Source: an uncultured Bacteroidota bacterium
Lineage (GTDB): Bacteria; Bacteroidota; Bacteroidia; UKL13-3
DNA length: 60,769 bases
Direction of reading: 5' to 3'
Assembly: GCA_903883965.1 (NCBI GenBank)
Contig: CAISCU010000013.1
Span: 1-60,769, forward strand
Part shown: in pieces, positions 12,816-37,628 of the stretch
Numbering within the stretch: the stretch's first letter is position 1
Layout of the letters: each line of letters opens with the position of its first letter
Program-made: the position numbers and the translations under genes
The notes under the pieces: generated by a model
Database searches by the model: none
What the model saw: the letters and a program-made list of their open reading frames with translations, nothing else
What the model was told of the DNA's origin: nothing

Positions 12816-13984
12816 GCTAACATGGATTGAGCGAGTTGAACATTGATACTTTCTCTTTTAAAAGTATGTATAAATTGACTGCGTTTTTCTTTGTAATACG
12901 AATACGAATTGAGTAGACTAACCAATTCTTCTGCTTGACATGGCTTAAACAGCAGTAAATTGGGAACATGTTGTTGAAGGAATTGAGCAGCATAGCCACC
13001 AACTCCTGCTATGATTGGTTTTTGTTGAGCAGCCAATTCAAATATCTTTGATGGCAATACTTTTTCAAATGCAGGGTAATCGTTTAAATGAATAAAATAA
13101 AAATCTGCTTCCTGATACGCCTTTAATAAATCTTTACGCTGAATGGGTTTATTAATGACTATATTATTGATTTGTAACTTTTTGATTTGGTCTTCTAATA
13201 ATTGTTTACAGCCTCCATCTCCATAGATAACAAATTGGTAATCGGAACCTAACTTTGCAGCAGCAGCTGGTAAAATTTCATGCAAGCCCTGCCCTTCTCC
13301 TATATTGCCTGCATACAAAATGGTATATGGTTTTGTTGCTGTTTTGGTATCTGTTTCTCCTAGTTCAATAAATTCATCATCTACCCCATGTGAATAATAA
13401 GTAAAATTGGGTTTGGTATAATGCTTATTAAAATACGGTTCAAAACCTTGAGAAATTAAATTGATGTGTGCCGCATTTTTAAAACTGAATTTTTCTATGC
13501 GTTCAAGCATTGGAATCAATACCCATTTAATTGGTTTAGGCAAACTCACATCTTTCATAGTATCTGAAAAAATATCTCTGATATCTAAATAAAGTTTACA
13601 GTTGTTATGTTTGGCTAGCAACCTAGCTAAGAATGCAGTAAATAGACGTGAAGAGGATGCTATAACTAAATCGTACGGTTTGCCTTTGGTATGCTTTTTT
13701 ACAAATTGATAATAGGCATAAAATGAAAATATTTGATCTAAGAAACCACTCTTGTGTTTTGGAATTTGGGCCCTTCTGATACTTAAATTTCCTATGACTT
13801 CAAACTCATCTGCACCTACTTCAAAACTTTTGTACCTATTGGGCAATGTTGTCAGTAAATCTATGTGGGTATTGAGTGCTGCTGCCTGTTTTGACAATTC
13901 ATGAACCAAAGGAGAATTGCGAAAAGAACCAGCACACAAATCGGGTTCAAAATAAAAACTCAAATACAAAATACGCCTGCTCAT
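12785..13984 (-). CDS. Glycosyltransferase, GT4 family (WbuB-like)
   Basis: This 399-residue protein has the two Rossmann-like domains of GT-B enzymes. The N-terminal part begins RRILYLSFYFEPDLCAGS, as in WbuB-like transferases acting on amino sugars. The C-terminal donor domain contains TILYAGNIGEGQGLHEILPA and the nucleotide-sugar region FEKVLPSKIFELAAQQKPII, which carries the conserved Glu of the GT4 family. It overlaps the upstream heparinase-like gene by four bases (ATGA) and the downstream PglD-like gene by 31. It is cytoplasmic or membrane-associated and adds one sugar to the lipid-linked repeat unit. Donor and acceptor are unknown. Confidence 0.88.
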   Translation of the reverse strand: MSRRILYLSFYFEPDLCAGSFRNSPLVHELSKQAAALNTHIDLLTTLPNRYKSFEVGADEFEVIGNLSIRRAQIPKHKSGFLDQIFSFYAYYQFVKKHTKGKPYDLVIASSSRLFTAFLARLLAKHNNCKLYLDIRDIFSDTMKDVSLPKPIKWVLIPMLERIEKFSFKNAAHINLISQGFEPYFNKHYTKPNFTYYSHGVDDEFIELGETDTKTATKPYTILYAGNIGEGQGLHEILPAAAAKLGSDYQFVIYGDGGCKQLLEDQIKKLQINNIVINKPIQRKDLLKAYQEADFYFIHLNDYPAFEKVLPSKIFELAAQQKPIIAGVGGYAAQFLQQHVPNLLLFKPCQAEELVSLLNSYSYYKEKRSQFIHTFKRESINVQLAQSMLACLPNQLPNN

Positions 13985-16705: not shown

Positions 16706-18832
16706 CTAAAGGTGAATGACATTGCCTGTTTTGAGACTTTCTATGGCTGCAAAACCTGCCTTAGTAGTATTGACTATTTCTTCAAATGAAATAGGAGCTT
16801 TGGCGCCTTTTTTAACTGCATCTACCAACAATTTAAACTGAGCTTTGTGACCCTTGTCTTGTGTACCAGAACTTTTTGAAAAACCTTTGCATCCAAATGC
16901 TTCAATTTTTCTAAAATTATCAACTACAATTGTTTTTCCTTGGCTGTGAATTTCTATTCTTTCTTTAGGATAGGCTTTGTTCCCATTTGAGAAATAATTG
17001 ATAACCCCTTGTGATCCATTTGCGAATTTAAGTGTAAGTATGGCATTGTCTGTATTCTCAGCTGGATTGCTGCCTAAGGCACTCATGTGCACCGATTGCA
17101 CCAAACTGCCCGATAAGTAGGTCATTAAATCAATAAAATGGCAAGCCTCACCTATAATTCTGCCTCCTCCAACTTGCATATCTTGAACCCAAACACTTTC
17201 ATCAATAAACCCAGCATTCATGGTAGCAATCATGTTCAATACAGGTGTGTTTTTTTCACCTAAGAGTTGTTTTGCTTTTACAACGTGCGGTGCAAATCTT
17301 CTATTAAAACCAACTGTTACAAACCTATTTGGATTGTTCAGCTGGGCATCAATGACCATTTGCAATTGTTCTTGTGTAATGGCTAGTGGTTTTTCTACAA
17401 AAACATTTTTACCTGATTCTAAACATGCTTTCACCATTTGTGCATGCGAATTGTGACGGGTAGTAACCATTACTAGGTCTACCTCTGGGTCTTTTAAAAT
17501 GGTTTGATAATCGGTGGTACTGATATCGAAACCATATTTAGACGCAAGAGATTTAGCAGACAAACCTCCTGCACTCGCTATGTATTTGTATGTTGCAGGT
17601 AAACCTTTCATTGCAGGCAGCATGGTCATTTTAGTAAAATTACCAGCTCCAATAATGCCTATAACTCCTTTTTGCGATTGGTATGCACCTTCCTTCAATA
17701 CAAACTGACTAGATGGCAAATTGCTGTCTTGTTTGTATCTCAATAAGGAAGCAATTTTATTCCCGCCCATTTGGCCATACACTTGCATGTAATTTTCAAA
17801 ATCAACAATTTCAGTAATTAAATCTTTGACTGAAATTTGGCCAGATGACATCGCTTGCAAAATGGCTTCAAAGTTTCTTTTTTGGGTCCATCTTACAAAT
17901 GCCAATGGATAATCTTGGCCTTTGTTTTCATAATTTTCGTCATACCTTCCAGGACCATACGAACAAGATACTTGAAAGCTCAATTCCTTTTTGTAAAAAT
18001 CGGAACGGTCTATTGACAACCCTATCACTCCTACCAAAACAATACGTCCTCTTTTACGAGACATTTTGGCGGCTTGCCCAATGACATCGTTGCTTTTGGT
18101 TGATGCTGTAATGATGACAGCATCAGCTCCACCAGCCTGTTTGGTAAGTTCCTGAACTGTTGCCACTACATCTAATCCATTAGAAGAATTGTATGCCGTA
18201 ATGCCTCTAGCAATTGCCAAATTCACTTTATTTTCATCAAAGTCAAATCCAATGACCCTGCAACCATTTGCTTTCAACAAATCGGCAGTGATTAAGCCAA
18301 TTAAACCCAATCCAATTACTACAACAGTTTCACCAAATGTTGGTTGAACCAATCTAATACCTTGCAAACCTATTGCACCAATTACAGTAAACGAAGCTTC
18401 TTCAAAAGAGGTGTTTTCAGGGATATGTGCACACAAATTTTGAGGCACACATACAAATTCTGCATGTCCTCCATTTGAAATTACACGGTCACCAACTTTA
18501 AAATCAGCTACACCATCTCCAACTTCAATAACAGTTCCTGCATTACAATAACCCAGAGGAAGTGGCTCATCTAATTTGTTAAAAACGGCTTCTAACGTTG
18601 GCAACAAGCCATCCGTTTTAATTTTATCTAACACCTGTTTTACTTTTTCAGGTTGTTGTCTTGCTTTTGCAATTAAATTGGAACGCCCAAACTCAACAAG
18701 CATTTTTTCTGTACCCAAGGAAACCAAAGAATGGTGAGTTCTAATGAGCACATGACCTTTTTTTACCAATGGGGCTGGAATTTCTTCCAATACGGTTTCA
18801 CCGCTTCTTAAATTTTGTATCAGTTGTTTCAT
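16706..18832 (-). CDS. Bi-domain oxidoreductase: alcohol-dehydrogenase-like plus Gfo/Idh/MocA
   Basis: This 708-residue fusion has two parts. Residues ~1-370 are a medium-chain dehydrogenase-like half (LGYCNAGTVIEVGDGV near 93; NAD loop VIGLGLIGL at 172-180). Residues ~390-708 are a Gfo/Idh/MocA oxidoreductase (GIIGAGNF at 392-399; KNVFVEKPLAIT; VGGGRIIGEACHFIDLM). Fusions of this kind are known from O-antigen and capsule loci and are thought to act on sugar nucleotides, possibly by two linked redox steps. It lies between the asnB and wecB genes with 5- and 12-base gaps. The exact substrate is unknown. Confidence 0.9.
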   Translation of the reverse strand: MKQLIQNLRSGETVLEEIPAPLVKKGHVLIRTHHSLVSLGTEKMLVEFGRSNLIAKARQQPEKVKQVLDKIKTDGLLPTLEAVFNKLDEPLPLGYCNAGTVIEVGDGVADFKVGDRVISNGGHAEFVCVPQNLCAHIPENTSFEEASFTVIGAIGLQGIRLVQPTFGETVVVIGLGLIGLITADLLKANGCRVIGFDFDENKVNLAIARGITAYNSSNGLDVVATVQELTKQAGGADAVIITASTKSNDVIGQAAKMSRKRGRIVLVGVIGLSIDRSDFYKKELSFQVSCSYGPGRYDENYENKGQDYPLAFVRWTQKRNFEAILQAMSSGQISVKDLITEIVDFENYMQVYGQMGGNKIASLLRYKQDSNLPSSQFVLKEGAYQSQKGVIGIIGAGNFTKMTMLPAMKGLPATYKYIASAGGLSAKSLASKYGFDISTTDYQTILKDPEVDLVMVTTRHNSHAQMVKACLESGKNVFVEKPLAITQEQLQMVIDAQLNNPNRFVTVGFNRRFAPHVVKAKQLLGEKNTPVLNMIATMNAGFIDESVWVQDMQVGGGRIIGEACHFIDLMTYLSGSLVQSVHMSALGSNPAENTDNAILTLKFANGSQGVINYFSNGNKAYPKERIEIHSQGKTIVVDNFRKIEAFGCKGFSKSSGTQDKGHKAQFKLLVDAVKKGAKAPISFEEIVNTTKAGFAAIESLKTGNVIHL

Positions 18833-18837
18833 TGGTA

Positions 18838-20760
18838 TTATCCTATTTTTCTGCCATCTTTAAATTGTGTGAGCCAACTTTCTATTGCTAACAAACTCCA
18901 TATTGTAAATGAGGCATCAATTTTTCCTTGTTTATTGTCTTTAATTAATTTTGTAACTTCAAATGGATTAAACAGACCTCTTTCTTTCACCTTCGTTTCT
19001 GATAACCTATCGGCAATTAATTCATTCATATCTTGAGAAATCCATTGCCTAACAGGGCCTGCAAATCCAGCTTTGGGTCTATAAATGAGTTCTCTTGGTA
19101 AATATTTTTCTGCCACCTTCTTTAAAATATATTTAGTAGTATTTCCATGCATTTTATAAGAAACTGGAATACGGGTACTGTAGTTTACAAGGTCTAGATC
19201 TAAAAAGGGCACTCTACTTTCTACACCAACAGCCATACTCATTTTATCATTGTAGTTCATATTGTGATCTACTAAAAATGATTTCATCTCCAAATAAAGC
19301 ATTTGGTTCAACAAGCTTTTTTCTTCAGGAATTGCATGCAATAAATGAGACAAAGTATGCAGTGAATTGTAGTTGCCAATATGGTTTAATGAATCAGCAG
19401 AAAATAATTTGTGAGCTGTATGTTGAGGTAACCATGAAAAATAACCTGTCATTCTATTCAAAGGTGTATTCTCAATATCTATAGACAATTTTTTTAACCT
19501 TCTATTAAATGGCTTCTGAATATCTATACCCTCAGCATAGAGCTTTAACAGATGTACAATAGGCTTTGGTACATTTTTAATCCATTTTTCTAAATTGAGG
19601 GCTTGATGCCTTCTGTAGCCACTAAACAAATCATCTCCACCGGCTCCACCTAATAAAACTTTAATACCGTTTTCTCTTGCACCTTTTGCAATATGGTATA
19701 CATTCAAAGGAGCAGAATCAGCTTGTGGTTCATCTAGGTGCCAAATCATTTTATCAAAATCTGCTAAAATATCCAATTTGGCATCAATGATATTGAGTTT
19801 AAAATCGAGCTTTTTAGAGATGAGTTTTGCATAGTATAAGTCATCAGAAAAGCCTTCTTTTTTCATAGCATTTTCGCCAGAATTAATGGTAAAAGCATTG
19901 ACTTTTTGACTAGGGAAAATTTGCTGTGAAATGGCTGCAATTAAAGTTGAATCTATTCCTCCTGAAACAAAAAAACCAACAGGAACATCACTCATCATTT
20001 GCCTTTCAAGTGCATCAAACAACTTTTGTTCGGTTTCAATGACAAACTCCTTTTCGTTGCCAACATGCATGCGCGAACCATTGAATGGAATATCATAAAA
20101 CTGAACAGTTTCAGACTTTAATGTACGCACATCAACAGTCATGTAATGACCAGGCAATAATTTCTGTATATGTTTGAAAGGTGTTTTTTCTCTGGGGCTC
20201 CATAACAACGTAATGTAATTCATTAAGGCATTATGGTCTATTTCTTTGTCTACATCTTCAAAGCAAACAATACTTTTTAATTCAGAACCAAAGAGGAAAA
20301 CATCGTCTTTTAAATAATAATAAAGGGGTTTAACACCCATTTGATCTCTTGCCAAAAAAAGGGATTGGCTAGAACGGTCATAAATACTAAATGCAAATAT
20401 GCCATTGAGTTTGGTTAAAACATGTTTGCCATATTCTATAAAACCGTACAATAAGGTTTCTGTATCACTGTTTCCTTTAAATTGATAACCTTTTGCTATT
20501 AAATCTTTCCTTAATTGAAAGTGATTGTATATTTCTCCATTGAAAACAATTACAAAATTGCCACTGCTATCAAACATGGGTTGATTGCCGTTTTCTGATA
20601 AATCTAAAATAGCCAATCGGGTATGCACCAAACCAATATTATTTTCAACAAAATGGCTTTGAGAATCTGGACCACGGTGCGCAATACTGTTTTGCATCCG
20701 CTCAATTAAGCTCAGATCAATACTTTTATTTCTATTTATAATGCCTGCAATTCCACACAT
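18838..20760 (-). CDS. asnB: Asparagine synthase (glutamine-hydrolysing) family amidotransferase
   Basis: This 640-residue two-domain enzyme has a complete class II glutamine amidotransferase domain. It shows N-terminal MCGIAG with the Cys2 nucleophile, HRGPD near 28-32, Arg49 and the NGE loop at 74-76. The ATP-pyrophosphatase loop SGGIDST lies at 266-272. In surface-glycan loci such homologues (for example WbpS and WbmI relatives) amidate uronic acids to uronamides. That role fits the WbpD/WbpE/WecB-like genes here better than housekeeping asparagine synthesis, but it is inference. It starts one base into the stop of the upstream glycosyltransferase (overlap at 20760). Confidence 0.92.
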   Translation of the reverse strand: MCGIAGIINRNKSIDLSLIERMQNSIAHRGPDSQSHFVENNIGLVHTRLAILDLSENGNQPMFDSSGNFVIVFNGEIYNHFQLRKDLIAKGYQFKGNSDTETLLYGFIEYGKHVLTKLNGIFAFSIYDRSSQSLFLARDQMGVKPLYYYLKDDVFLFGSELKSIVCFEDVDKEIDHNALMNYITLLWSPREKTPFKHIQKLLPGHYMTVDVRTLKSETVQFYDIPFNGSRMHVGNEKEFVIETEQKLFDALERQMMSDVPVGFFVSGGIDSTLIAAISQQIFPSQKVNAFTINSGENAMKKEGFSDDLYYAKLISKKLDFKLNIIDAKLDILADFDKMIWHLDEPQADSAPLNVYHIAKGARENGIKVLLGGAGGDDLFSGYRRHQALNLEKWIKNVPKPIVHLLKLYAEGIDIQKPFNRRLKKLSIDIENTPLNRMTGYFSWLPQHTAHKLFSADSLNHIGNYNSLHTLSHLLHAIPEEKSLLNQMLYLEMKSFLVDHNMNYNDKMSMAVGVESRVPFLDLDLVNYSTRIPVSYKMHGNTTKYILKKVAEKYLPRELIYRPKAGFAGPVRQWISQDMNELIADRLSETKVKERGLFNPFEVTKLIKDNKQGKIDASFTIWSLLAIESWLTQFKDGRKIG

Positions 20761-25696: not shown

Positions 25697-27029
25697 AATT
25701 AACCTCCTTTTCTAACACTCCTAATTCATTCAAACTTTTAAATAACAATACAGCCATTAACACATAAAATTGAGCGTACTTAAAATTTTCTAAGGGATCG
25801 GCAGTACTTTCAAAATAAATAGAAGAGGTTAAAATCATAAAAAATATCAATGGATGCGTAACCCATTTACTCACTTTTTTAACGGGCTTGTACTGCTTTA
25901 ATATGATAAAAATAAAACCTAAATGAAAGTACAAACCTACAATACCTAGATTCAAAAATGTACCTAGGAAACCATTGTCTGCAAAATCTTCAATGATTTT
26001 GGTATAGCCTAATCCTATAAAAATGGAGGCTGGATTTGCATATTTTACAAAGTCATCTATTCGGCTTTGCCAAAACTCATCTCGTCCGGCAACAGCAGTT
26101 ACACTCTTTGTATCGTCATATTCTTCAACTGTAGAAATAATTCTTCCTTGAATCAAATCAGCAGATAGCAATACCAAAAATAAGAATACTGTAGCCGCAA
26201 TAATACTGGCTCCTTTTACCGTTACTGCTGTTTTATCTTTTTGGTTCAAATACAAAAACAAAAGTGTGTTAAAAACAAAAACCACAATAGAAGTTCGGGA
26301 TCCAAAAACCGTTAAAATAGCTGTCAAAGAAGCAAATAAAAATACCAAGCTTACAATTGTATTAACAAGCTTTTTTGAATACATGATGTTTGCAAACAAA
26401 ATACTACTGGCCATGGCGTATAAAATGGCCGACATGTTTGCATTGCCTGTAAAACCTACTGCTCTATAGGTAAATACCTCCCTTTCAAACGAATAAATAT
26501 ATTCATCAGATGCAATGACACCTCCACCCAATACAGGTAAATAGGTACTAACTATAAAATACTTGACATTGAACAAATCATAAAACTCAAAATACACAAA
26601 TGGCAAATACACTATGAGCATGATCACAAAAAACCGGATCAGTTTTTCATAATCTTCTTTTTCCATTTTAATGTTGGTAACTACCATCAAAATCAGAGTA
26701 AACCGATACCACCTATAAAAATGGGCAAAAATTTGAGGTTTAATTGGTGCAGCTAAATACAAATATTCAAACAACGTTGAAATGAATGCAATGCTACCCA
26801 AAGCTATACCTAAATTATATAGCACTTTATACCCTTTGTAATTGGTAATGCTTCTCAGAGAACTTTTAGCTTGAAACATCAAAGCCAAGAACAAAAGCAA
26901 ATCTGAAAACCTAAAGGCATACAAAGCAACGTTTGTTGGCTGAAAAAATACCACAAAAATGAAAAAAGCAACGAATTTCCAGGTATTATAAAAACTAGGT
27001 CCTTTATCTACTAAACTATGCTGCTCCAT
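25683..27029 (-). CDS. wzy: O-antigen polymerase/ligase-type membrane protein (Wzy-like)
   Basis: This is a multi-pass protein of about 448 residues. I prefer the ATG at 27029 over 27098, because the upstream extension lies wholly inside the flippase gene. Roughly ten to twelve hydrophobic segments are visible, with a long hydrophilic loop around residue 300 (VAGRDEFWQSRIDDFVKYAN). In Wzy and WaaL-like proteins the large periplasmic loop carries catalytic residues. Wzy proteins polymerise lipid-linked repeat units in the periplasm. The gene overlaps wzx by 14 bases, the usual Wzx/Wzy pairing. Sequence conservation is low in this family, so the call rests on topology and position. Confidence 0.8.
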   Translation of the reverse strand: MEQHSLVDKGPSFYNTWKFVAFFIFVVFFQPTNVALYAFRFSDLLLFLALMFQAKSSLRSITNYKGYKVLYNLGIALGSIAFISTLFEYLYLAAPIKPQIFAHFYRWYRFTLILMVVTNIKMEKEDYEKLIRFFVIMLIVYLPFVYFEFYDLFNVKYFIVSTYLPVLGGGVIASDEYIYSFEREVFTYRAVGFTGNANMSAILYAMASSILFANIMYSKKLVNTIVSLVFLFASLTAILTVFGSRTSIVVFVFNTLLFLYLNQKDKTAVTVKGASIIAATVFLFLVLLSADLIQGRIISTVEEYDDTKSVTAVAGRDEFWQSRIDDFVKYANPASIFIGLGYTKIIEDFADNGFLGTFLNLGIVGLYFHLGFIFIILKQYKPVKKVSKWVTHPLIFFMILTSSIYFESTADPLENFKYAQFYVLMAVLLFKSLNELGVLEKEVNYGRV

Positions 27030-28287
27030 GGAAATACTTTTTTGAAACGATTTTAAATGAAATCCAAGAAGCCAAATAGGCAAAAGAACCAAGGGCAATC
27101 TTCACATACAAGGCGCCCTGCATTCCCAAATTAGAAACTACTATATAATACAAGGGTATTGACAGGAGTAGCAAAACTACCGAAATGTAAAAATTGTAAT
27201 TGAATGCACCTAATCCCATCACTGCTGTATCCTTGATATTGTTCATATAATTGAGTGCCCATGCAATTACCAGTCCTCTGAAGTATATAAAGGCCGACTG
27301 GTGATACTTTCCGTCAAAAACAAAATCTATCATGAATGGAATTACAAAATAAACGAAAACCAAGGAGAATAAAGTGACTAAATGGTTTAATTTATTGTAA
27401 TGACTATAGGTACTCTTCCATCTTGAGTACTGATTGGATATGCCTGCAAAATGAGGAAAAGCAATTTGCTGTATGGTTTGCGGAATGACATTTAAAATTG
27501 AAATTAATGTAATTGCAAATGCATATTGACCAAATACGCTTAAATCCAATACAAAGTGATTGATAAACAAAATGTCTAAAGAAGAATATAAAAAACCAAT
27601 AAAATTAGTCATCAACGCAAATTTAGACAAGTGCCAAAGCGCATTCAATTTGCTTGAAAAATCTAGTGGTTTCACAAACATTCTATTCTCCTTAGGAATT
27701 GACAAAAAGAGGAATCCCAATGAAACAAATCCACCTAATAATACCGCCCAAACATATCCATTTAAATGAAAAAAATACGTGAATAGTACTATCAATAAAA
27801 CCGATACGAATTTAATGACGCTCTGTAATTTGGCATATTGTTTTATTTTATTGATGCCTTGGTAATAGCCGCCCAATACACTCTGAATGGCCAAAGGAAA
27901 TAAAAACACCATATAAATAGGAAACAGCAACTTTATTTGAGTGTCTGTTGAAATCAAATTCAAATAATTGGCGCCAATTAAACCTAGCCAAACTGCTAAA
28001 AAGACTATACTTGCTACAACAATTGAAATTGTTAAATAAGCACTTTGATCCTTGGTGTTGGTTTGCTGTGCTGTTAATTTTACAATAGAAACATTCATTC
28101 CCAATGCACACATGGTAGTTGCCAAGCCAACATAAGTCTGCATAATGCGTATGGCCCCAATATCTGATGGGTTTAAAAATTTTGCAACAAATAACTGAGA
28201 CGCAAAACCGGCCAACAATATGAGTCCATTAGCTCCAAGTAAATGAAAGAAGCCTTTTTCAAAAACCTTCTTAATTTCAGCTTTCAT
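27016..28287 (-). CDS. wzx: Oligosaccharide flippase (Wzx, MOP superfamily)
   Basis: This is a protein of about 423 residues with some twelve hydrophobic helices. I prefer the start at 28287 (MKAEIKKVFEKGFFHLLGAN), because the upstream 20 residues from 28347 overlap the previous gene and look non-native. The N-terminal block FFHLLGANGLILLAGFASQL followed by KFLNPSDIGAIRIMQTY is typical of polysaccharide flippases that move undecaprenyl-linked oligosaccharides across the inner membrane. The basic residues at 2-8 suit a cytoplasmic N-terminus. It overlaps the asparagine-synthase-like gene by 11 bases and the Wzy-like gene by 14. Confidence 0.88.
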   Translation of the reverse strand: MKAEIKKVFEKGFFHLLGANGLILLAGFASQLFVAKFLNPSDIGAIRIMQTYVGLATTMCALGMNVSIVKLTAQQTNTKDQSAYLTISIVVASIVFLAVWLGLIGANYLNLISTDTQIKLLFPIYMVFLFPLAIQSVLGGYYQGINKIKQYAKLQSVIKFVSVLLIVLFTYFFHLNGYVWAVLLGGFVSLGFLFLSIPKENRMFVKPLDFSSKLNALWHLSKFALMTNFIGFLYSSLDILFINHFVLDLSVFGQYAFAITLISILNVIPQTIQQIAFPHFAGISNQYSRWKSTYSHYNKLNHLVTLFSLVFVYFVIPFMIDFVFDGKYHQSAFIYFRGLVIAWALNYMNNIKDTAVMGLGAFNYNFYISVVLLLLSIPLYYIVVSNLGMQGALYVKIALGSFAYLASWISFKIVSKKYFHGAA

Positions 28288-29998
28288 GTATTTCTGGGAA
28301 TAAAAGTTTGAAAGCACAGAAAAAATTAAACACCAACAGTTTTTCAAAAGTACTGCCCTGCTCGCTCAATAATTTTAAATCGGCAGCTAGTTGTTTGTTT
28401 TCTATGGCGTTCAATTGATATTGTTTATATAAAAGGGCAGTTAAAGAAGGATTGCTTTCAAACCATTTTTGAACAGGAATAGCTACTGCATCTTTTTTAC
28501 CAAATATGATTTTGAGCCTATTTTGAATACGGGCAGCCAATAATCTGTGTTTATTTGAAGTGGGCAAAGCATCGTATTTCCAGCGGTATTGATTGACCTT
28601 TGGGTGTTTAAAATTCATCCAGTCAATTGTAAGATTGCCGTTGACTCTGTATTGGGGATCTATTGAAAATGCAAAGTCTGCAAAGTCGGGCTCCATGTAA
28701 GTATACACACTTGAGGTAAATGGCTCCGTCATCCAGGTGCCGTTGTGTATGGCATTGAACCCTCTATTGTAAAGCGCAAAAAGCTCATCATTGGTTTGTT
28801 GTGCTATTGCTTCAACCTCTGATTGAATTCTACTCAACAAGGTTGTAGATACGCCCCATCTATTTGCATGTGCAGGTTCATGGTAGGCATTTTTTAAATA
28901 CCCCCCCTTGCTACTTTCTGCTAAAATCCCATTGTGTGTTAATCCAAAAACATCAAAATTCAATTGTTGATTGGCCAATAATGTTTGTGCGGCACCAAAA
29001 TAATAAACAGAACAATTATTGAGTATCAACGGCAAAGTAGGCTGTTGCAAATAATTGCCATCACCCAATTTGACAATTAAATGAAGGTGACCTAAATCAT
29101 TGGTTATTTCGCGTGCAATTTGCTCATCACTTGATTGGTCTTGTCCAAATGTAATATTGGTTTGATTGGTATACCCCAACTCATTTGCCAACATAACATT
29201 TAAGCGTGAGTCTAAACCCCCACTGATATGTCCAAAATGACTGAAGCCATATTGTAAATCTTTGTTGTATTCTAATTTGATGGAGCGTACAAACAAGTCA
29301 TCCAATTGCTCAAAAACAGCTGCATTGACTTGATTGATTTGAACCTGGTTATTAAATTTATAATAGGTTTGAATAGTTGACTGGGCTGCAATAGAAGCGT
29401 TGAGCAGTTGTGCGGGTTCAAGTTTTTTAATTTCTTGCACCAAGGTATGATTGGCCAATAAATAACCAAATGTAACAAACTCATATGCAGCAATGGTATT
29501 TAAACTGGTTTTGATTCCCAAATAAACCAACATTTCTTTCACAAAAAACAGTGATGAAGAAAAAATAAAAACCGTCTCGTCTTCAAAATAAAAAAAAGGT
29601 TTTGAACCAGTATGGTCAGTTACCAATGTTAAACTTTGGCGTGCTTCATTGTAATAAAAAGCTTGAAATGTGCCTTTCAAAGGCCTAAAATAGGTAGCTA
29701 GTGAATTGGTAGCTGCCGCCATTTCAATTGCTTGCAAATTGTCTTGATTGATCCAATTTTCCTTTGAAGTATCTTTGGTTAAGTTGATACCATCAAACCC
29801 AAACACAATGGATTTGTTTTGAACCAACCCTTTGTCTCTTTTAAATTTTTGATTAGAATACCAGGCCACCCTTAACTGAGGAGTTTGGATTTCGCTTTGG
29901 TAGGGGAATAATTCATTTTGGGTTGAACCAAATGTAAAAGCATCTAATTGTGCTTGAAACACTGGCGACTTAATCATATATCCACTAAACCCACTCAT
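28277..29998 (-). CDS. Asparagine-synthase-like protein lacking the glutaminase nucleophile
   Basis: This 573-residue homologue of AsnB starts MSGFSG where active enzymes have MCGIAG, so residue 2 is Ser and the Cys nucleophile is missing. The expected HRGPD segment of the glutaminase domain is also not recognisable. The ATP-pyrophosphatase domain is kept: HISGGLDSRLNVML with SGGLDSR at 259-265. It would therefore adenylate a carboxylate and use free ammonia or another amine, rather than glutamine. Similar AsnB-like proteins make beta-lactams or lasso peptides by acyl activation. It lies just upstream of wzx, and its role in the glycan is unknown. Confidence 0.85.
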   Translation of the reverse strand: MSGFSGYMIKSPVFQAQLDAFTFGSTQNELFPYQSEIQTPQLRVAWYSNQKFKRDKGLVQNKSIVFGFDGINLTKDTSKENWINQDNLQAIEMAAATNSLATYFRPLKGTFQAFYYNEARQSLTLVTDHTGSKPFFYFEDETVFIFSSSLFFVKEMLVYLGIKTSLNTIAAYEFVTFGYLLANHTLVQEIKKLEPAQLLNASIAAQSTIQTYYKFNNQVQINQVNAAVFEQLDDLFVRSIKLEYNKDLQYGFSHFGHISGGLDSRLNVMLANELGYTNQTNITFGQDQSSDEQIAREITNDLGHLHLIVKLGDGNYLQQPTLPLILNNCSVYYFGAAQTLLANQQLNFDVFGLTHNGILAESSKGGYLKNAYHEPAHANRWGVSTTLLSRIQSEVEAIAQQTNDELFALYNRGFNAIHNGTWMTEPFTSSVYTYMEPDFADFAFSIDPQYRVNGNLTIDWMNFKHPKVNQYRWKYDALPTSNKHRLLAARIQNRLKIIFGKKDAVAIPVQKWFESNPSLTALLYKQYQLNAIENKQLAADLKLLSEQGSTFEKLLVFNFFCAFKLLFPEIHES

Positions 29999-30004
29999 AT
30001 TGCT

Positions 30005-31168
30005 TTATTTGGTGTATAAATTTAGCCAGTTGTTTTTGTTCGCATCCCAAGAAACCAATTGTTGGATGATGTTAAAATTAGTTAAACTGGCAGTTTGTTC
30101 TTCAGAAAGTTGGCACAATACCTGATTCAACTGAGCAGTTAAATTTTCTGGTGCAATACGGTGATAGTTTGTTTTCAAGTTGTCGAGATGCTCATAGGGC
30201 AACCAGTTACCAGTAATGACAACTGAACCCGCTAATAAATGTTCGTATAAGGCTGAAGCAGCTTGATCTCTTCTCGATACCAAGACAAAAATATCTGTAG
30301 CGTATCGCAACGCGGTTACTTCTTCATTGCTCAAATAATTTTTATAAATTTTAAAGGGCAAATTGCCACTTTGCATTTTTTGATTGACATGTACTTGATT
30401 TTGTTCAAAATCTCTTCCGTAGGTCATTGGAAAAATAACTTGAATAGTTTTTCCATCTATACCTGTAGTAGCAAGTTTTTGGAGGCTATCAATCATTAAA
30501 TCAAATTGCATAATCTCATCTCCGCAATACCCACAGGTAATTAAAATGTCTGTTTCACTGAACCCAAGAAAAAGTTTGGCCTGCAAGCGGGTTTGGGTGG
30601 CATGCTGTTTAAACATGTTTTCCATTACAGGCATGAGTGGAATGAGCTGTATCGATTCTATTTTTTTGTTTGGATCGTACTTTGCCTGTACCTGATTTAA
30701 AAATACCCGATTCTCGGCTATTAAGGTATTGGCTAATGAGCAACTCAGTTGATTAAAGAAATGCCTCATTTTTCCAACCTGATTGAAATCACTCCCATAA
30801 AAAGTGAGGTATATAAACCTTGATTTTAACCTGAACAGCAGCACCAAAAATGCATAGTAATAATGCATGAATTGAAAATGTACATAATCGTATTTGGGCA
30901 ACTTTGCGCCTAAAAACAACAAACGTAGCAGCTGAATAAAAACCCTCAATTTGGGTATTTGATGGTACCACTTGGTGGCATTTGGCAACACATACAACTG
31001 ATTAAAATAAGGCCTTAGAAAATCTATATCTGCCGGATTTTTTACAGAAGTAATGAAACAGTCCATTTGAGTTTGACAGCCTTCCTCCTGCATTTTTTTG
31101 AGGGTTCGAACAACAAATGTTTTTACCAAATGGCTTTCCGAAACAATCAATAATTTCTTGTTCATCAT
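30005..31168 (-). CDS. Glycosyltransferase, GT56/WecF-like or divergent GT4
   Basis: This is a 387-residue GT-B-like protein. KKLLIVSESHLVKTFVVRTL opens an N-terminal domain. The C-terminal part carries IQVIFPMTYGRDFEQNQVHV and a segment LRYATDIFVLVSRRDQAASA. The first matches the PxTYG region of TDP-Fuc4NAc transferases (WecF, GT56), and the second the donor-site region of that family. Its start ATG overlaps the upstream stop (ATGA at 31168-31165). It is a likely transferase of an amino sugar such as a 4-amino-4,6-dideoxyhexose, but donor assignment is uncertain. Confidence 0.8.
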   Translation of the reverse strand: MMNKKLLIVSESHLVKTFVVRTLKKMQEEGCQTQMDCFITSVKNPADIDFLRPYFNQLYVLPNATKWYHQIPKLRVFIQLLRLLFLGAKLPKYDYVHFQFMHYYYAFLVLLFRLKSRFIYLTFYGSDFNQVGKMRHFFNQLSCSLANTLIAENRVFLNQVQAKYDPNKKIESIQLIPLMPVMENMFKQHATQTRLQAKLFLGFSETDILITCGYCGDEIMQFDLMIDSLQKLATTGIDGKTIQVIFPMTYGRDFEQNQVHVNQKMQSGNLPFKIYKNYLSNEEVTALRYATDIFVLVSRRDQAASALYEHLLAGSVVITGNWLPYEHLDNLKTNYHRIAPENLTAQLNQVLCQLSEEQTASLTNFNIIQQLVSWDANKNNWLNLYTK

Positions 31169-32295
31169 TTGGCAATAAAAAGTTCAGAAATGTATTGATT
31201 GTACAATTGAGCAGTACCTGATGCCGAACGTTCTTGCACATTCTTTTTACTAATTACTCCATGCAGGTCTATCAGTGCAGGATTGTTTATGTAATTAGCT
31301 AATGCCTTTTTCATGGCATGTATTTCCAAAGGTTCAATGTATCCGTTTACTTGATGGCTGAGGTATTCTGAAACATTTAAAATTTGGTCACTGATGACTA
31401 CACCCATTCCTGATGCCATCCCTTCTATGAGGGTATTGGGGCCATTTGAGTTTTTAGCGGGTATAAATAATATGTCTGCATTTTTGTATATCAGGTGTAA
31501 ATCGTTCCAATTATCTATGCCATCTATAAAATGAATGGCATTTTGTAAGCCTTTTGTTTGAATGAAATCTTCGCATTGTTTTCGCAGAGAACCATGGGCA
31601 TTCATGCGCATACGTACACCCGGATATAATTGATTGAGTTCTAAAAAAACGTCAATTGCAAAAAGTGGGTTATAGGCATCTTCTAGCCTTCCGGGAAACA
31701 ATATTGTTAAATTATCTGATGCATTTTTACTGCGTTTTTCATGCTTCAAATGCATGTCAATGTCTTGTGGGTATCTGGTTAACCTCACTTTAGAAGCAGG
31801 ATACTTGTACAATTCTATAAATTGATTAACCACATTTGGCCCCATTGCAAACAAGCGATCCATTGGTCTAAAAAATAACAAGGTAAATTGTCTCAATGCC
31901 CTTTTTATCTGGAACAAAAATGGGTGAATTGAAAACCTATTTAGTTCCAATGTTTCTGTATAAAATATGACTTTTTTATGATTGATTTTTGCCCATAACA
32001 AAACCATTAAATGCATGGGAATAAAAAAACCTCCCATAATAATTATATCTGGATTGAACGCGTTTAATTTTTTAAATACACTGCTATTGAAATAGCCAAA
32101 AAACCGAATATTTTTTGAGCCTTCCAAAATTTCACAATGGTCGCCTAATGGAATTTTCCAAAACTCGGGTCTGTCTTTTTCTAAATGCACATAAAACCAA
32201 AACTTAGCTTGGTAATAGACCTGCAAAGCCTCGCAAAACTTCACTTGATAAGGCGCGGCCATATTGCTCAGAAATACCAGTTTGGGTTTACTCAT
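31165..32295 (-). CDS. Glycosyltransferase, GT4 family
   Basis: This 376-residue GT-B protein begins KLVFLSNMAAPYQVKFCEAL and has an acceptor region IIIMGGFFIPMHLMVLLWAK. The donor domain shows LTILFPGRLEDAYNPLFAID and LFIPAKNSNGPNTLIEGMAS, whose Glu fits the EX7E region of GT4. It overlaps both neighbours by four bases, as expected for translational coupling. It transfers one sugar in repeat-unit assembly. Specificity is unknown. Confidence 0.88.
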   Translation of the reverse strand: MSKPKLVFLSNMAAPYQVKFCEALQVYYQAKFWFYVHLEKDRPEFWKIPLGDHCEILEGSKNIRFFGYFNSSVFKKLNAFNPDIIIMGGFFIPMHLMVLLWAKINHKKVIFYTETLELNRFSIHPFLFQIKRALRQFTLLFFRPMDRLFAMGPNVVNQFIELYKYPASKVRLTRYPQDIDMHLKHEKRSKNASDNLTILFPGRLEDAYNPLFAIDVFLELNQLYPGVRMRMNAHGSLRKQCEDFIQTKGLQNAIHFIDGIDNWNDLHLIYKNADILFIPAKNSNGPNTLIEGMASGMGVVISDQILNVSEYLSHQVNGYIEPLEIHAMKKALANYINNPALIDLHGVISKKNVQERSASGTAQLYNQYISELFIAK

Positions 32296-33299
32296 TTTTG
32301 TTTGTGTAATGAAATTCCTTTGGCAATAACCGCGCCGTATGCTATTGTTAAATCAGCTGGCGAAGGTTGTTCGTTATTGAGCCATTTTTTATACAATTCC
32401 GGCACATTCAAGCCTGACAAATGCGAAAACGGATAACCTCCTCCAAAGCGAGGATTTAAATCTATTAAAAATACCTCTCCCTCATTGGTTATAATAAAAT
32501 CGGCATCTAACATGCCAATGTGTTTTGTATGTGAAGCAATTTCTTTTGCAACTTTTTGCAATTGTTCATTTTCTACTATTTCAGCCATATCCGTTTCTCC
32601 GGCACGCATAGCTAATTTCCTTTTTGCTAATGCTGTAAAAAAATTACCTTCCAAATCATTTACAATATCAATTCCATATTCTTGTCCAATGGCCATTTGC
32701 TGAATCAACATTTGGTTTTTTTGATTGGAAGGAACTGGGTCTTGTAAAAATGACTCACCCAATTGTGCATTCAAATGGTTAAAAGTATTGGTTAAGGAAT
32801 CTAAATTCTCTACTACACTTGTGGCAATTGAACCAGTACCCCACCTGGGTTTTACAATAACTGGGAATTTTAACAAACCTGTTTGTATGGCTTTATTTGC
32901 GTCCTCTAATGAAGTATATGTTTTAGGAATTTGAATGGTTTTTAAATTGGAAAAGCCAGAATAGGCCAATTTATCAAAACAGTTTTCAATGGTTTCTGTA
33001 TCTGAAACTATAATATGGGTTCCAATTTTCTGAAACTGTTCTTTTTCTTTTGAAAGCACACTCAAGTCCATGTCAAAAAGCGGCACTATCAACTGAATTT
33101 GATGGGTTTGACAGAGGTCTAACAAAAATGGAATATAGGCACTGCTTTTAATTGGAGGAGACACAAACGCTTGATCGGCCTCGAACATACCAGAAGTTTG
33201 CGCTATGCTATTGGAGGCAAATAATTTGCCACTGAAACTTTCCCTAAAAAAGGGAATCATGTAATTTCTTCTACCAATACTTGTAAACAGCACATTCAT
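32292..33299 (-). CDS. ATP-grasp carboxylate-amine ligase
   Basis: This is a protein of about 335 residues. I prefer the ATG at 33299 (MNVLFTSIGRRNYMI) because relatives begin that way; an ATG at 33308 would add three residues. The pre-ATP-grasp Rossmann domain is followed by ATP-grasp motifs: FPVIVKPRWGTGSIATSVVE, MLIQQMAIGQEYGIDIVND and the metal-binding LIDLNPRFGGGYPFSHLSG near the C-terminus. These enzymes activate a carboxylate as acyl phosphate and couple it to an amine. Next to a DegT aminotransferase, the amine is plausibly an amino sugar. The substrate is not known. Confidence 0.85.
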   Translation of the reverse strand: MNVLFTSIGRRNYMIPFFRESFSGKLFASNSIAQTSGMFEADQAFVSPPIKSSAYIPFLLDLCQTHQIQLIVPLFDMDLSVLSKEKEQFQKIGTHIIVSDTETIENCFDKLAYSGFSNLKTIQIPKTYTSLEDANKAIQTGLLKFPVIVKPRWGTGSIATSVVENLDSLTNTFNHLNAQLGESFLQDPVPSNQKNQMLIQQMAIGQEYGIDIVNDLEGNFFTALAKRKLAMRAGETDMAEIVENEQLQKVAKEIASHTKHIGMLDADFIITNEGEVFLIDLNPRFGGGYPFSHLSGLNVPELYKKWLNNEQPSPADLTIAYGAVIAKGISLHKQK

Positions 33300-33300
33300 A

Positions 33301-34389
33301 TTACCCATAGTTCTGAATTCTTAAAATGAGTCTGGCTATTAATTGAACTTCTTCTTCGCTCAAAGTATAAAACAATGGCAAACACATAACCCTTTCGGAG
33401 ATACTATGTGAATGTACCAATGATGGATCTTCTTTCACGTAAGGTATTCTATCTAAAGAAGGATAGAAGTATCTTCTAGGGAAAATATTGGCAATATTTA
33501 ATTCAGTTAATGTTTTATGAAATTGAGCTTCATCATTAAACACTATTGGATAGTATGAACAGTTGTAATCTGTTTGGTCATAAATTTTAGGCCTGTATGC
33601 ATTGAGTTGAGGAAACAACAAACTGTCGTACAAATGGCTCATTTTTTTCCGTTGTTCCAAAATGGAATCAATGTATTCTAAATTTACTAAGCCCATAGCC
33701 GCATGAAATTCAGAATTTTTCCCATTGATCCCTACCATTGCAAATTTCTCTGGACCATCATGTCCAAAATTCCTGTGAAAAGCCATTCTGGCAATAGTTT
33801 CAGAATCATTTGAAAAAACTGCTCCACCTTCAATGGTATGGAACAATTTGGTTGCATGGAATGAAGTTGTTGTAATGTCGCCAAATTCAAACAATGAATT
33901 GCCTTGCACTTTGGTTCCAAATGCGTGGGCTCCATCATAAATGACTTTCAAATTGTACTTTTTTGCAATTAGATCTATTGCGTCAACATCACATGGATTG
34001 CCATAGACATGGGTTGCCAATATAGCAGAGGTTTTATCAGTGATTGCCGCCTCAATTAAACGCGGGTTGATGTTCAAACTTTCAGGATCTATATCAACAA
34101 AAACAGGGGTACATCCTTCCCATACAATGCTACTAGTGGTTGCCACATATGAAAAAGGTGTGGTAATTATTTCTCCCTTTAGGTCTAAAGCTTTAATTGC
34201 AATTTGAATGGCAATGGTACCATTATTGGTATACAAGAGATGCTTTAAATTTAAATATTTCTTTAAAGACAATTCAAGATCGTTTACCAATGGTCCATTA
34301 TTGGTTAACCATGCCCTTTGCCAAATACCATTTACTTTTTCTTGGTATTTTTCTATCGGAGGTAAAAAAGGTTTTGTTACTGGAATCAT
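33301..34389 (-). CDS. DegT/DnrJ/EryC1/StrS sugar aminotransferase (VioA-like)
   Basis: This 362-residue PLP enzyme has IPVTKPFLPPIEKYQEKVNG at the N-terminus, YTNNGTIAIQIAIKALDL as the phosphate loop, IYDGAHAFGTKVQGNS with Asp152, and the PLP lysine Lys181 in TTTSFHATKLFHTIEGGA. The DGAHAFG and FHATK forms resemble VioA/FdtB-type aminotransferases acting on 4-keto-6-deoxy or 3-keto sugars. It lies four bases inside the nucleotidyltransferase gene downstream of the Leg trio. The next gene is the ATP-grasp ligase, which suggests that its amine product is acylated. Confidence 0.88.
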   Translation of the reverse strand: MIPVTKPFLPPIEKYQEKVNGIWQRAWLTNNGPLVNDLELSLKKYLNLKHLLYTNNGTIAIQIAIKALDLKGEIITTPFSYVATTSSIVWEGCTPVFVDIDPESLNINPRLIEAAITDKTSAILATHVYGNPCDVDAIDLIAKKYNLKVIYDGAHAFGTKVQGNSLFEFGDITTTSFHATKLFHTIEGGAVFSNDSETIARMAFHRNFGHDGPEKFAMVGINGKNSEFHAAMGLVNLEYIDSILEQRKKMSHLYDSLLFPQLNAYRPKIYDQTDYNCSYYPIVFNDEAQFHKTLTELNIANIFPRRYFYPSLDRIPYVKEDPSLVHSHSISERVMCLPLFYTLSEEEVQLIARLILRIQNYG

Positions 34390-35468
34390 GATAAATTCAT
34401 ATTGGTTAAACCCAATCGGCGCATTGAGTCGTTGTACTTATCCCATTCACCAATATCAAACCACGAACCTTCACTTACAGGGTATACGCCTACCCTTTTG
34501 TTTTCGTTTTTTAGTTTGAGCATGAGTTCGGTGATATGAAAAAATTCGTTGTGTGGGATATCATTTAAAACATGTGGCTCTAAAATATACATACCTGCAT
34601 TGACCAAGAAATGAAAACTTGGTTTTTCACGCATATCTGTTAAAATACCATCTTTGGTAGTTTCTAGAGTTCCATAGGGTATTTCATAATTCTTAACCAC
34701 AGCAACAGCTGTTAAATCATTCTTATTTTGCCTATGAAAATCAAGCATCGCTTGGTAATTGTCTTTGATCAAGATATCGCAATTAGAAACAAAAAATGTT
34801 TCATTGAGTTCTCCCAAAAGCAAATGTAAACTACCTGCAGTTCCTAATGGTTTGTCTTCTACAAAGTATGCTATATCGTATGAATGGTCGTCAAAATATT
34901 GTTTGATCATTTCTTTTTTGTAATTCACCGAAGCGTAAAATTTTCGACTACCTAATTTGTGAAATGATTCTATAATCCATTCCATGATTGGTTTATCGCC
35001 AAGTGGAATTAAAGGTTTAGGAATGATATTGGTAATGGGTTTGAGTCGGCTTCCCTGTCCTCCTGCCATGATCACCATCGGACATGTAAAATTCTTATTC
35101 TCTTCTGGCTGTGGCAATTCATTAAAAACATCTTCCCAAAAAATGATTTCGTGAATTTGGTTGTTATCAGATAAAACAGGCATAAACTCCATTCGGTGAA
35201 GCTGAATCAATTGATGGATCTCTTCTTTTGACTGTGTTACCTGCGCCACCAAAATATCTTTTCTTAAAATATCAGCAACAGGAGTTGTTAAATCTTTGCC
35301 TGCAATAATGGCTCTTTGAATATCTCCAATGCTCAACAGAGAAACAAACTGGTTATTGGCTAAAACAAGCAATAATTTTTTCTCTATGGAATCCATTTGC
35401 TTCAAGGCATCTATGAGTATTGCAGAGGGATGAATTGAAATTTGGGTGATTCTTTTTGATTGCAGCAT
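34386..35468 (-). CDS. ptmE: CBS-domain nucleotidyltransferase (PtmE-like, glucosamine-1-phosphate guanylyltransferase type)
   Basis: This 360-residue protein has two CBS motifs in about residues 1-118, then a sugar-1-phosphate nucleotidyltransferase domain. The latter shows MVIMAGGQGSRLKPITNIIP at 131-150, then KPLIPLGDKPIMEWIIES, with a FFVSNCDILIKDNY metal-site segment. This domain order matches PtmE of the GDP-linked legionaminic acid route, which makes GDP-GlcN from GlcN-1-phosphate. It overlaps the aminotransferase downstream by four bases and follows legC by five. The GDP specificity is inferred from the company of LegB and LegC, not from residues. Confidence 0.85.
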   Translation of the reverse strand: MLQSKRITQISIHPSAILIDALKQMDSIEKKLLLVLANNQFVSLLSIGDIQRAIIAGKDLTTPVADILRKDILVAQVTQSKEEIHQLIQLHRMEFMPVLSDNNQIHEIIFWEDVFNELPQPEENKNFTCPMVIMAGGQGSRLKPITNIIPKPLIPLGDKPIMEWIIESFHKLGSRKFYASVNYKKEMIKQYFDDHSYDIAYFVEDKPLGTAGSLHLLLGELNETFFVSNCDILIKDNYQAMLDFHRQNKNDLTAVAVVKNYEIPYGTLETTKDGILTDMREKPSFHFLVNAGMYILEPHVLNDIPHNEFFHITELMLKLKNENKRVGVYPVSEGSWFDIGEWDKYNDSMRRLGLTNMNLS

Positions 35469-35473
35469 GTTGT

Positions 35474-36637
35474 TTATTCTTGAATGAGGCTATCTTTTAC
35501 CAAAACACTACTAGGAAGATTTACCAAGGTATCTGCAACTTTTCCTGAAACAGTTAATGGACCACAAATGGCGTTTTTAAACATGTCTAATTTGTGCATG
35601 AGTTGCCAAGCTGGACGGGTCATCACATGGTTATCATTGGAGTATGTTAAAAAAGCGTCTCTTTCAATTTTGTCTGCAAACAAAACCGCATTCAACCAAT
35701 AATTTGATTTGGCATATGTGGGCTCTTCTACAAATGTTGCTGGCAATTCTTTGAACAAAACTGCATACTGAATGGCCAATTTCCTTTTACTTTCCAAAAA
35801 GGCATCTAACAATTCTATTTGCGCGCAGGCCAAAGCCGCATTCAAATTTGGCATTCTATAATTGTAACCAATATGGTCATGTTCGAAATTCCAACGGTGT
35901 GGAATTTTAGCTTGAGTAGTTAAGTGCTTTGCTAGTTTAGCCTGTTTTTCGTTATTGGTAACAATGACTCCCCCACCACCACAAGTAATGGTTTTGTTGC
36001 CATTGAAACTAAATGCTCCAAAATCGCCAAAGGTTCCAGTATGTTTTCCTTTAAAAAAAGACCCCATAGACTCAGCACTGTCTTCAACCATCGGCAAAAA
36101 ATACTGCTTACATATTTCAAGCATCTTATCTATTTGTACCGGATGCCCAAAGGTATGCATTGGAACTACTGCGGCTATTCTTTTACCTGTTTTAACATGG
36201 TAGCAATTTTGATTTTTAACCTCACATTCTGTTGCTAAAAAATCAGACAAAGCATCGGTACACAAGCCTAAATTTTGGCTATCAATATCTACAAAAACAG
36301 GTTCTGCACCTATGTAACTGATGGCATTACAAGTGGCAATAAATGAAAGCGCTTGTGTAATTACTAATTCATTTGATTTGACTCCAGCCAACAACAAACT
36401 CATATGCAATGCCGCTGTTCCATTTACGGTGGCTACAGCATAATTTGCACATGTATAATCTTTGACCATGTCTTCAAACTGGTCTACATATTTACCTACA
36501 GAGGAAACAAAAGTTGAGTCAATTGCATCTAACACATATTTACGGTCATTCCCAATAAATCTAGGTTCATGAAGTGGAATAAAAGCCGCTGGCTCATTGT
36601 AGTAATTCCTAACAAAAGATACAATTTCGTTAAACAT
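35474..36637 (-). CDS. legC: LegC-like sugar nucleotide aminotransferase
   Basis: This 387-residue DegT-family enzyme opens with VSFVRNYYNEPAAFIPLHEP then RFIGNDRKYVLDAIDSTFVS, the typical LegC N-terminus. The PLP site includes TVNGTAALHMSLLLAGV, VEDSAESMGSFFKG and the lysine Lys215 in SFNGNKTITCGGGG. It would aminate C4 of the 4-keto-6-deoxy product of LegB. It overlaps legB by eight bases and precedes the PtmE-like gene. LegG, LegI and LegF homologues (2-epimerase/hydrolase, synthase, CMP transferase) are not in the window, so the product may remain a hexose. Confidence 0.9.
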   Translation of the reverse strand: MFNEIVSFVRNYYNEPAAFIPLHEPRFIGNDRKYVLDAIDSTFVSSVGKYVDQFEDMVKDYTCANYAVATVNGTAALHMSLLLAGVKSNELVITQALSFIATCNAISYIGAEPVFVDIDSQNLGLCTDALSDFLATECEVKNQNCYHVKTGKRIAAVVPMHTFGHPVQIDKMLEICKQYFLPMVEDSAESMGSFFKGKHTGTFGDFGAFSFNGNKTITCGGGGVIVTNNEKQAKLAKHLTTQAKIPHRWNFEHDHIGYNYRMPNLNAALACAQIELLDAFLESKRKLAIQYAVLFKELPATFVEEPTYAKSNYWLNAVLFADKIERDAFLTYSNDNHVMTRPAWQLMHKLDMFKNAICGPLTVSGKVADTLVNLPSSVLVKDSLIQE

Positions 36638-37628
36638 TGTAGATGAGTGGTTTATACTGTGCTAAATTGTTAGGATTTCTAAACCATTCAATGGTTTCAG
36701 CCAATCCTGTTTGTATGGTATAATCAGCTTTCCAGTCTGTATATTGTTTTAATTTTTCGTTAGAACCAAAAAGCCTAAACACTTCACTCTTTGCTGGGCG
36801 GAGTCTTTGTTCATCTTCCAAGATGCTTGCCTTTGGGTTAATTTGTTGGATCAATTCGTTGGCTAAATCTCGGATAGAAATTTCTGATTGGGTAGCTATG
36901 TTCACTTCATGGCCTATGAGTTCAGGTTGCTTGGCAATTGCTATAAAACCTTTTACGGTATCTTTCACAAATAACAAATCACGTGTTGGCGTTAAATCTC
37001 CCAATTTAATTTCTGTAATTCCCGACAGTAACTGAGTTATGATGGTTGGTATAACTGCTCTAGCCGACTGCCTAGGACCATAGGTATTGAATGGCCTTAC
37101 AATAGTAATTGGTGAATTGAAACTTCGGTAAAAAGAATCGGCTATACAATCGGCTCCAATTTTAGAGGCAGAATAAGGAGATTGAGGTTGTTTAGGATGG
37201 AGCTCGGTAATTGGTACAAATTGAGCAGTACCATATACTTCAGATGTTGACGTAACCAATACCCTTGACACATTTAAATCTTTGGCTGCCTGAACAATGT
37301 TTAAGGTTCCTTTGATATTGGTATCTATGTAAGAATCTGGAGAATGGTAGCTATATGGAATGGCAATCAATGCCGCTAAATGAAAAACAATATCAATGTC
37401 TTTCATGGCTGTTCTCACACCATTTGGATCTCTGATATCACCAGAAAAAATTTCAATTCTGTCGAGTTGTTCTTTGGGTAAAGTGTCTAACCAACCCCAG
37501 GTATTGAACGAATTGTAATACACAAAAGCCCTTAAATGACAACCTTCATTTAACAATGCCTCTGCCAAATGACTGCCTATAAAACCATCAGCACCTGTTA
37601 ACAATACTTTTTTTCCTTTGATATTCAT
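36630..37628 (-). CDS. legB: LegB-like NAD-dependent 4,6-dehydratase
   Basis: This 332-residue extended short-chain dehydrogenase has the Rossmann motif LLTGADGFIGSHL (GADGFIG at 12-18). It also has FVYYNSFNTWGWLDTLP, which is characteristic of LegB, and the SDR catalytic YSASK with Tyr152 and Lys156. PFNTYGPRQSARAVIPTI and LTPTRDLLFVKDTVKG follow. It catalyses 4,6-dehydration of GDP-GlcNAc in the legionaminic acid route. It is the first gene of the 21-gene minus-strand block, with a 265-base spacer to the divergent exosortase operon that must hold the promoter of the block. Confidence 0.9.
   Translation of the reverse strand: MNIKGKKVLLTGADGFIGSHLAEALLNEGCHLRAFVYYNSFNTWGWLDTLPKEQLDRIEIFSGDIRDPNGVRTAMKDIDIVFHLAALIAIPYSYHSPDSYIDTNIKGTLNIVQAAKDLNVSRVLVTSTSEVYGTAQFVPITELHPKQPQSPYSASKIGADCIADSFYRSFNSPITIVRPFNTYGPRQSARAVIPTIITQLLSGITEIKLGDLTPTRDLLFVKDTVKGFIAIAKQPELIGHEVNIATQSEISIRDLANELIQQINPKASILEDEQRLRPAKSEVFRLFGSNEKLKQYTDWKADYTIQTGLAETIEWFRNPNNLAQYKPLIYNV

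Follow-up and report, generated by a model that had tools for sequence, protein, structure and literature searches.

Why should a glycan locus that already encodes an intact glutamine-dependent AsnB also carry an AsnB-like protein that has lost the glutaminase Cys? Both genes lie in one stretch of 60,769 nucleotides from an uncultured Bacteroidota bacterium (the window), and the first-pass annotation read the second protein (the query) as an AsnB relative with a meaningful Ser-for-Cys exchange, probably activating a carboxylate for an amine other than glutamine-derived ammonia; it took the presence of both proteins as a hint of two different amide-forming steps. What is new here is the membership of the query in a clade of such proteins and the near-fixed Wzx-type flippase partner of that clade. 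The pair points to a hitherto unstudied amide-forming step in cell-surface sugar synthesis.

The query gene and its locus

The query begins MSGFSG where the paralogue has MCGIAG, lacks HRGPD and keeps SGGLDSR at residues 259–265, just as the first-pass annotation had described, and the MSGF[ST]G start is identical in four genomes. The paralogue reported in the same locus is indeed intact, with an MCGIAG start, HRGPD and matches to Asn_synthase in Pfam (E 1.4e-83) and asn_synth_AEB in NCBIfam (461.5 bits, cut-off 267.1). The query gene lies within a single long run of minus-strand genes, from 37628 down to 12216, which contains LegB, LegC, a nucleotidyltransferase that we take to be PtmE-like, two further DegT aminotransferases, an ATP-grasp ligase and several glycosyltransferases, as well as the flippase, Gfo/Idh oxidoreductases, WecB and the intact AsnB (Table 1). 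As listed, the flippase reading frame extends to 28347 and opens with TTG; its likely ATG, read by eye at 28287–28285, falls inside the end of the query gene and gives an 11-base overlap. No gene of the LegI or LegF type was seen among the window genes scanned, though LegB and LegC exceed their NCBIfam cut-offs, and the pathway may thus have a nucleotide diamino sugar as its end product and not reach legionaminic acid.

Table 1. Query gene, neighboring genes and intact AsnB paralogue in the window
Feature	Coordinates	Strand	Basis or remark
Glutaminase-dead AsnB-like protein (query)	28277..29998	-	573 aa, ATG start
Codons of SGGLDSR pyrophosphate loop, query residues 259–265	29204..29224	-	Sequence and alignment numbering
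Wzx-type MOP flippase	27016..28287	-	Pfam PF13440 2.2e-13, PF01943 8.5e-10
Glycosyltransferase-like partner, 387 aa	30005..31168	-	Remote GT56-type relative: probability 91, E 1.1e-6, 125 columns
Glycosyltransferase group 1	31165..32295	-	PF00534 5.8e-19
PylC / carbamoyl-phosphate-synthase-like ATP-grasp ligase	32292..33308	-	NF009404 316.7 bits, cut-off 316
DegT aminotransferase	33301..34389	-	Best NCBIfam match DesI-like, below cut-off
CBS + sugar-1-phosphate nucleotidyltransferase	34386..35468	-	Domain and NCBIfam profile scans
LegC-family aminotransferase (4-amino sugar)	35474..36637	-	NCBIfam 528.7 bits, cut-off 420
LegB NAD-dependent 4,6-dehydratase	36630..37628	-	NCBIfam 494.7 bits, cut-off 475
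Intact glutamine-dependent AsnB-type amidotransferase	18838..20760	-	Pfam, NCBIfam, residue alignment

Inside this biosynthetic locus, near WecB and a heparinase II/III-like protein (13981–15594), a single 708-residue protein (16706–18832) joins an N-terminal zinc-dependent dehydrogenase to a C-terminal Gfo/Idh oxidoreductase.

In the query, Pfam recognized only the end portion of GATase_7 (E 1.7e-7, residues 98–150); at E ≤ 0.01 it gave no match to the Asn_synthase domain. Two relatives, L068 (2.3e-12) and L067 (1.3e-10), do reach the latter domain, and a profile of 12 relatives aligned with a profile of seven intact AsnBs over 247 columns (probability 99.9, E 2.5e-33), which indicates that the homology of the query to AsnB is not due to chance; its family shares with the AsnB superfamily the SGGxDS loop and AsnB-like sequence over these columns. 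An AlphaFold2 model of the query, built from a four-row alignment (A2), had a mean pLDDT of 36.6, too low to serve as a structure.

A clade without a glutaminase site

Scanning a genome collection with the query returned three relatives, at 94, 71 and 38% identity. Profile searches of 395 phylum-sampled genomes revealed nine full-length matches at E ≤ 3e-49, the window's own counted, with a wide score gap between these members and ordinary AsnBs (E 3e-49 versus 2e-21). Further profile searches found members in 3 of 147 close relatives (own genome counted) and matches in 56 of 246 genomes of family f21, 14 of 92 of family f71 (one of the 14 being a sister protein), 1 of 79 of family f64 (a member) and 4 of 395 in a class sample (one of the four an ordinary AsnB); f21, f64 and f71 are labels of genome families only. 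L130 (G091), an ordinary AsnB with MCGIAG and HRGP, was rejected as a member. The viral contigs searched held no relative of the query, and plasmid and phage searches with it gave distant AsnB-family matches only.

Placement in an AsnB-family tree, the check suggested in the first-pass annotation, separated 28 members from nine AsnBs at a 100/100 branch. The members (pseudo-AsnBs hereafter) are a single clade of Bacteroidota proteins, apart from ordinary AsnB, and all features of the clade were found: one tree group, absence of Cys2, Arg after SGGxDS and a flippase neighbor. A sister protein with an MPGIFG start and SGGLDSR is encoded at L088 1501–3204, in a gene cut by the contig end; the other ORFs of that cluster include sulfotransferase-like starts (read by eye), and no flippase was seen up to the contig end.

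Alignment of 48 distinct members with 21 intact AsnB controls revealed that Cys2 is present in every control and in no member, and the same is true of three glutamine-binding residues in the glutaminase site, Asn74, Glu76 and Asp99 (each 0/48 versus 21/21); His28, the His of HRGPD, is likewise missing from all 48. Judged from these residues, the glutaminase site is dead across the whole clade. Residue 2 is Lys in 23 members, Ser in six, Ala and Gln in five each, His and Thr in three each, and Pro, Tyr and Arg in one each. Ser2 as an Ntn nucleophile or Cys substitute was therefore rejected, the position being mostly Lys and open to nine residues, and one would not expect Ser2Cys by itself to bring back activity. 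The exchange that the first-pass annotation had stressed is thus incidental; the important facts are the dead-glutaminase clade and its almost fixed flippase partner.

The ATP site and the synthetase half

SGGLD is retained in all 48 members and the following Ser in 46 (SGGLDA in two). Arg stands directly after SGGxDS (Arg265 in the query) in 48/48 members and 0/21 controls. A His with the same distribution (48/48 members, 0/21 AsnB controls) lies two residues ahead of the Gly conserved in the Mg motif. At the Mg site, Asp (D376 of the window AsnB) is kept in 42 members and replaced by Glu in four, the query among them, and by Gly or Asn in one each. The family-specific invariants R265, H355, E405, G420 and W460 (48/48) and K553 (46/48) suggest a putative working active site.

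Other parts of the synthetase half have changed. D505 is replaced by Gly and R516 is lost in all 48 members. Position 373 of the window AsnB, presumably the site of the beta-lactam synthetase Tyr (Tyr–Glu dyad) near the Mg site, is Gln in 34 members, Met in seven, Ile in three, Gly, Ala, Ser or His in one each, and Tyr in none. PMC6748925 gives the Lys essential for AsnB synthetase activity as Lys466 in human ASNS; at this position, where the alignment is gappy, Lys occurs in 4/48 members, the query included. Loss of the AsnB Glu348 equivalent was discarded as a marker, since the position varies in the intact controls (Asp in eight, Glu in five, Gln in four, Leu in three, Ala in one).

Pairing with a Wzx-type flippase

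Of the 29 member loci with sufficient flanking DNA, 28 have a Wzx-type flippase gene as immediate neighbor and L120 has one at a distance of one gene, a feature that the first-pass annotation had missed, as it had the Arg after SGGxDS. Ordinary-AsnB control loci, which were the top-scoring non-members of the 395-genome search with contig-end matches skipped rather than a random draw, have an adjacent flippase in 1/20, or in 2/20 if L147 is counted, whose adjacent 10-TM ORF has no Pfam match and was scored as no flippase. The difference between 28/29 and 1/20 corresponds to a Fisher p of 2e-11, or 7e-6 after hand thinning to ten lineages. The count took 12 of the 56 f21 matches and 10 of the 14 f71 matches; from one set of 20 regions it left out L087 (3.2 kb contig), L129 (sister protein truncated at the end of its contig) and L130 (ordinary AsnB), and L074 is the L004 locus. 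Nine partner flippases were confirmed by Pfam and the others by a profile made from ten partners.

Pseudo-AsnB precedes the flippase in the window group, Cecembia (L005), L128 and most of f21, and follows it in f71, L066 and L127. By our own reading of the gene lists, 25/29 loci have a glycosyltransferase-like gene next to the pair. The partner flippases form four deeply separate clades in a tree, mirroring the pseudo-AsnB clades; a dedicated flippase subfamily was rejected, since other flippases interleave with these four. No description of the pairing was found in the parts of the literature searched. In L121 (6294–11585) and L132 (6241–11512), two different flippase genes flank the transferase and pseudo-AsnB, and the outer one is related to the f71 partners.

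Gene context and substrate

The four large clusters (window group, Cecembia L005, L066 and L127) combine the pair with LegC, WecE or PseC type aminotransferases, which exceed the NCBIfam cut-offs for 4-amino-sugar aminotransferases in the window, L005 and L066 and stay below them in L127. The transferase by the pair is GT56-like in L066, as is one sequence of alignment A4 that is probably the L127 transferase; that of the window group is a remote relative. WecF, the transferase for the 4-amino-4,6-dideoxy sugar Fuc4NAc, belongs to family GT56. The L066 cluster also contains a PIG-L deacetylase and a WbqC-like gene. The context of the large clusters favors an amide on a 4-amino sugar. No 4-amino-sugar genes were seen near the f21 stand-alone modules or the f71 export clusters, and the amine is therefore not fixed by context. 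A seryl-tRNA synthetase gene in f21 was taken to be probably a conserved chromosomal neighbor rather than a functional one.

Proposed function

With the glutaminase lost family-wide and the ATP-pyrophosphatase loop kept, a glutamine-independent ligase distinct from the intact AsnB is the natural reading of the sequences, in line with what the first-pass annotation had proposed. The best explanation, to which we assign a probability of about 0.4, is that pseudo-AsnB is an ATP-dependent, glutamine-independent carboxylate–amine ligase that would modify an undecaprenyl-linked glycan before flipping, on the cytosolic side of the membrane. The N-terminal Ntn domain would be a shrunken scaffold only, and the C-terminal PP-loop domain would bind ATP–Mg and adenylate the carboxylate. 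A 4-amino-4,6-dideoxyhexose, through its 4-amino group, or an amino acid would probably provide the amine for the amide, and the modified lipid-linked glycan would then be exported by the neighboring Wzx-type flippase. The rarity of the AsnB catalytic Lys (4/48, gappy alignment) and the absence of the dyad Tyr (0/48) count against a ligase. That the protein is an enzyme is what we infer, on well-founded grounds.

Beta-lactam synthetase and the carbapenam synthetase CarA are AsnB relatives that do without glutamine and whose N-terminal domain is dead. They combine an antibiotic context with the dyad Tyr, whereas the pseudo-AsnBs have a glycan context and lack this Tyr throughout; CarA_N is touched by only one of 12 members, below the cut-off (E 0.0082). 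The lasso-peptide cyclase is an AsnB-family isopeptide-forming enzyme, and against its profile NF033535 the query scores 55.4 bits, far from the cut-off of 525.

The flippase pairing could instead reflect a role other than ligation, in which pseudo-AsnB is an ATP-binding subunit or checkpoint that recognizes the finished lipid-linked glycan and permits its export. The near-constant flippase neighbor, which is drawn from four lineages and can precede or follow pseudo-AsnB, is consistent with such a subunit. So are the absence of the AsnB catalytic Lys from most members and the loci L073, L125, L126 and L131, where flippase and pseudo-AsnB form a module of two genes that no transferase adjoins. 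We consider it unlikely, because the strictly kept PP loop and the new polar invariants R265, H355, E405 and K553 look catalytic and we know of no AsnB-fold transporter subunit.

WbpS, WbqG and PGN_1234 are glutamine-dependent AsnB types. These uronamide amidotransferases (TIGR03108 class) share AsnB homology and a glycan locus with the query, which differs in lacking the Cys and in its score of 55.7 bits against TIGR03108 (WbpS/XrtA amidotransferase; cut-off 816.9). Pseudo-AsnB might accordingly amidate a uronic acid as WbpS does, but from free ammonia. PMC7468200 offers a Bacteroidota precedent for uronic acid amidation by an AsnB relative: deletion of PGN_1234, which itself lies downstream of wzx (porS) in P. 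gingivalis, abolishes the glucuronamide of the linking sugar. An ammonia-dependent uronamide synthase seems quite improbable here, given that an intact AsnB is already in the window and that the synthetase half is altered too, with the D505 and R516 changes in every member, a pattern that differs from mere loss of the glutaminase.

The Arg after SGGxDS and the His before the Mg-motif Gly, found in all members and no control, could also indicate other PP-loop chemistry on the glycan, such as adenylyl or sulfur transfer or amidine formation. No sulfur-carrier or similar partner gene was recognized beside pseudo-AsnB in the loci scanned, and we give this chemistry a small chance.

The query gene is under purifying selection, with dN/dS of 0.12 against L003 (full-length open frames), where four operon neighbors gave 0.04–0.11, and of 0.04 against L004, where synonymous sites are saturated. 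Despite its eroded N-terminal domain, a decaying paralogue or pseudogene, an outcome the first-pass annotation had allowed for, is thus extremely improbable.

The Arg marker beyond the clade

Among 103 distinct AsnB-family ORFs with an exact SGGxDS, a set biased towards the members searched for, all 52 with Arg lack MC and HRGP, whereas of the 51 without Arg, HRGP is present in 51 and MC in 49. Fourteen further plasmid records were analyzed, 13 of them one per genus from 24 evenly spread matches, plus H41. Two have the Arg, both without Cys2, and ten without Arg keep Cys2 or HRGPD; L160 has neither Cys2 nor Arg, and L170 has no recognizable loop and no Cys2. The Arg is thus a marker for one type of glutaminase loss and not for all.

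Haloarchaeal "asparagine synthase-related proteins" of glycan loci resemble the query in having no Cys2, no HRGPD and SGGxDSR; they differ in length (about 610–660 residues) and share about 20–24% identity with it among the matches listed. A flippase-like gene, by annotation name only, is adjacent in Natronococcus (L157) and separated by two genes in Haloferax (L154, L155). The haloarchaeal plasmid proteins L154, L155, L157, L164 and L171 are annotated as asparagine synthase-related or hypothetical; since the glutaminase Cys is absent and SGGxDSR present, an asparagine biosynthesis label is probably wrong for them.

If the ligase reading is right, glycan assembly has an AsnB-derived ligase class besides the uronamide synthases, easily recognized by an Arg that follows SGGxDS and a missing Cys2, with "asparagine synthase-related" as its database annotation. 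The constant flippase partner would tie chemical modification to export, with a bearing on Wzx cargo recognition. A wider proposal, which we regard as doubtful, is that the transferase, pseudo-AsnB and Wzx-type flippase make up a widespread, undescribed export module of two to three genes, in which an obligatory ATP-driven glycan mark licenses flipping and enzymes of the SGGxDSR type have this part in glycan export in both Bacteroidota and haloarchaea.

Elsewhere in the window, a protein encoded at 48854–50944 carries a C-terminal sorting domain for type IX secretion (PF18962), which suggests that the source organism probably has a T9SS and, with it, a possible need for a Wbp-type linking sugar.
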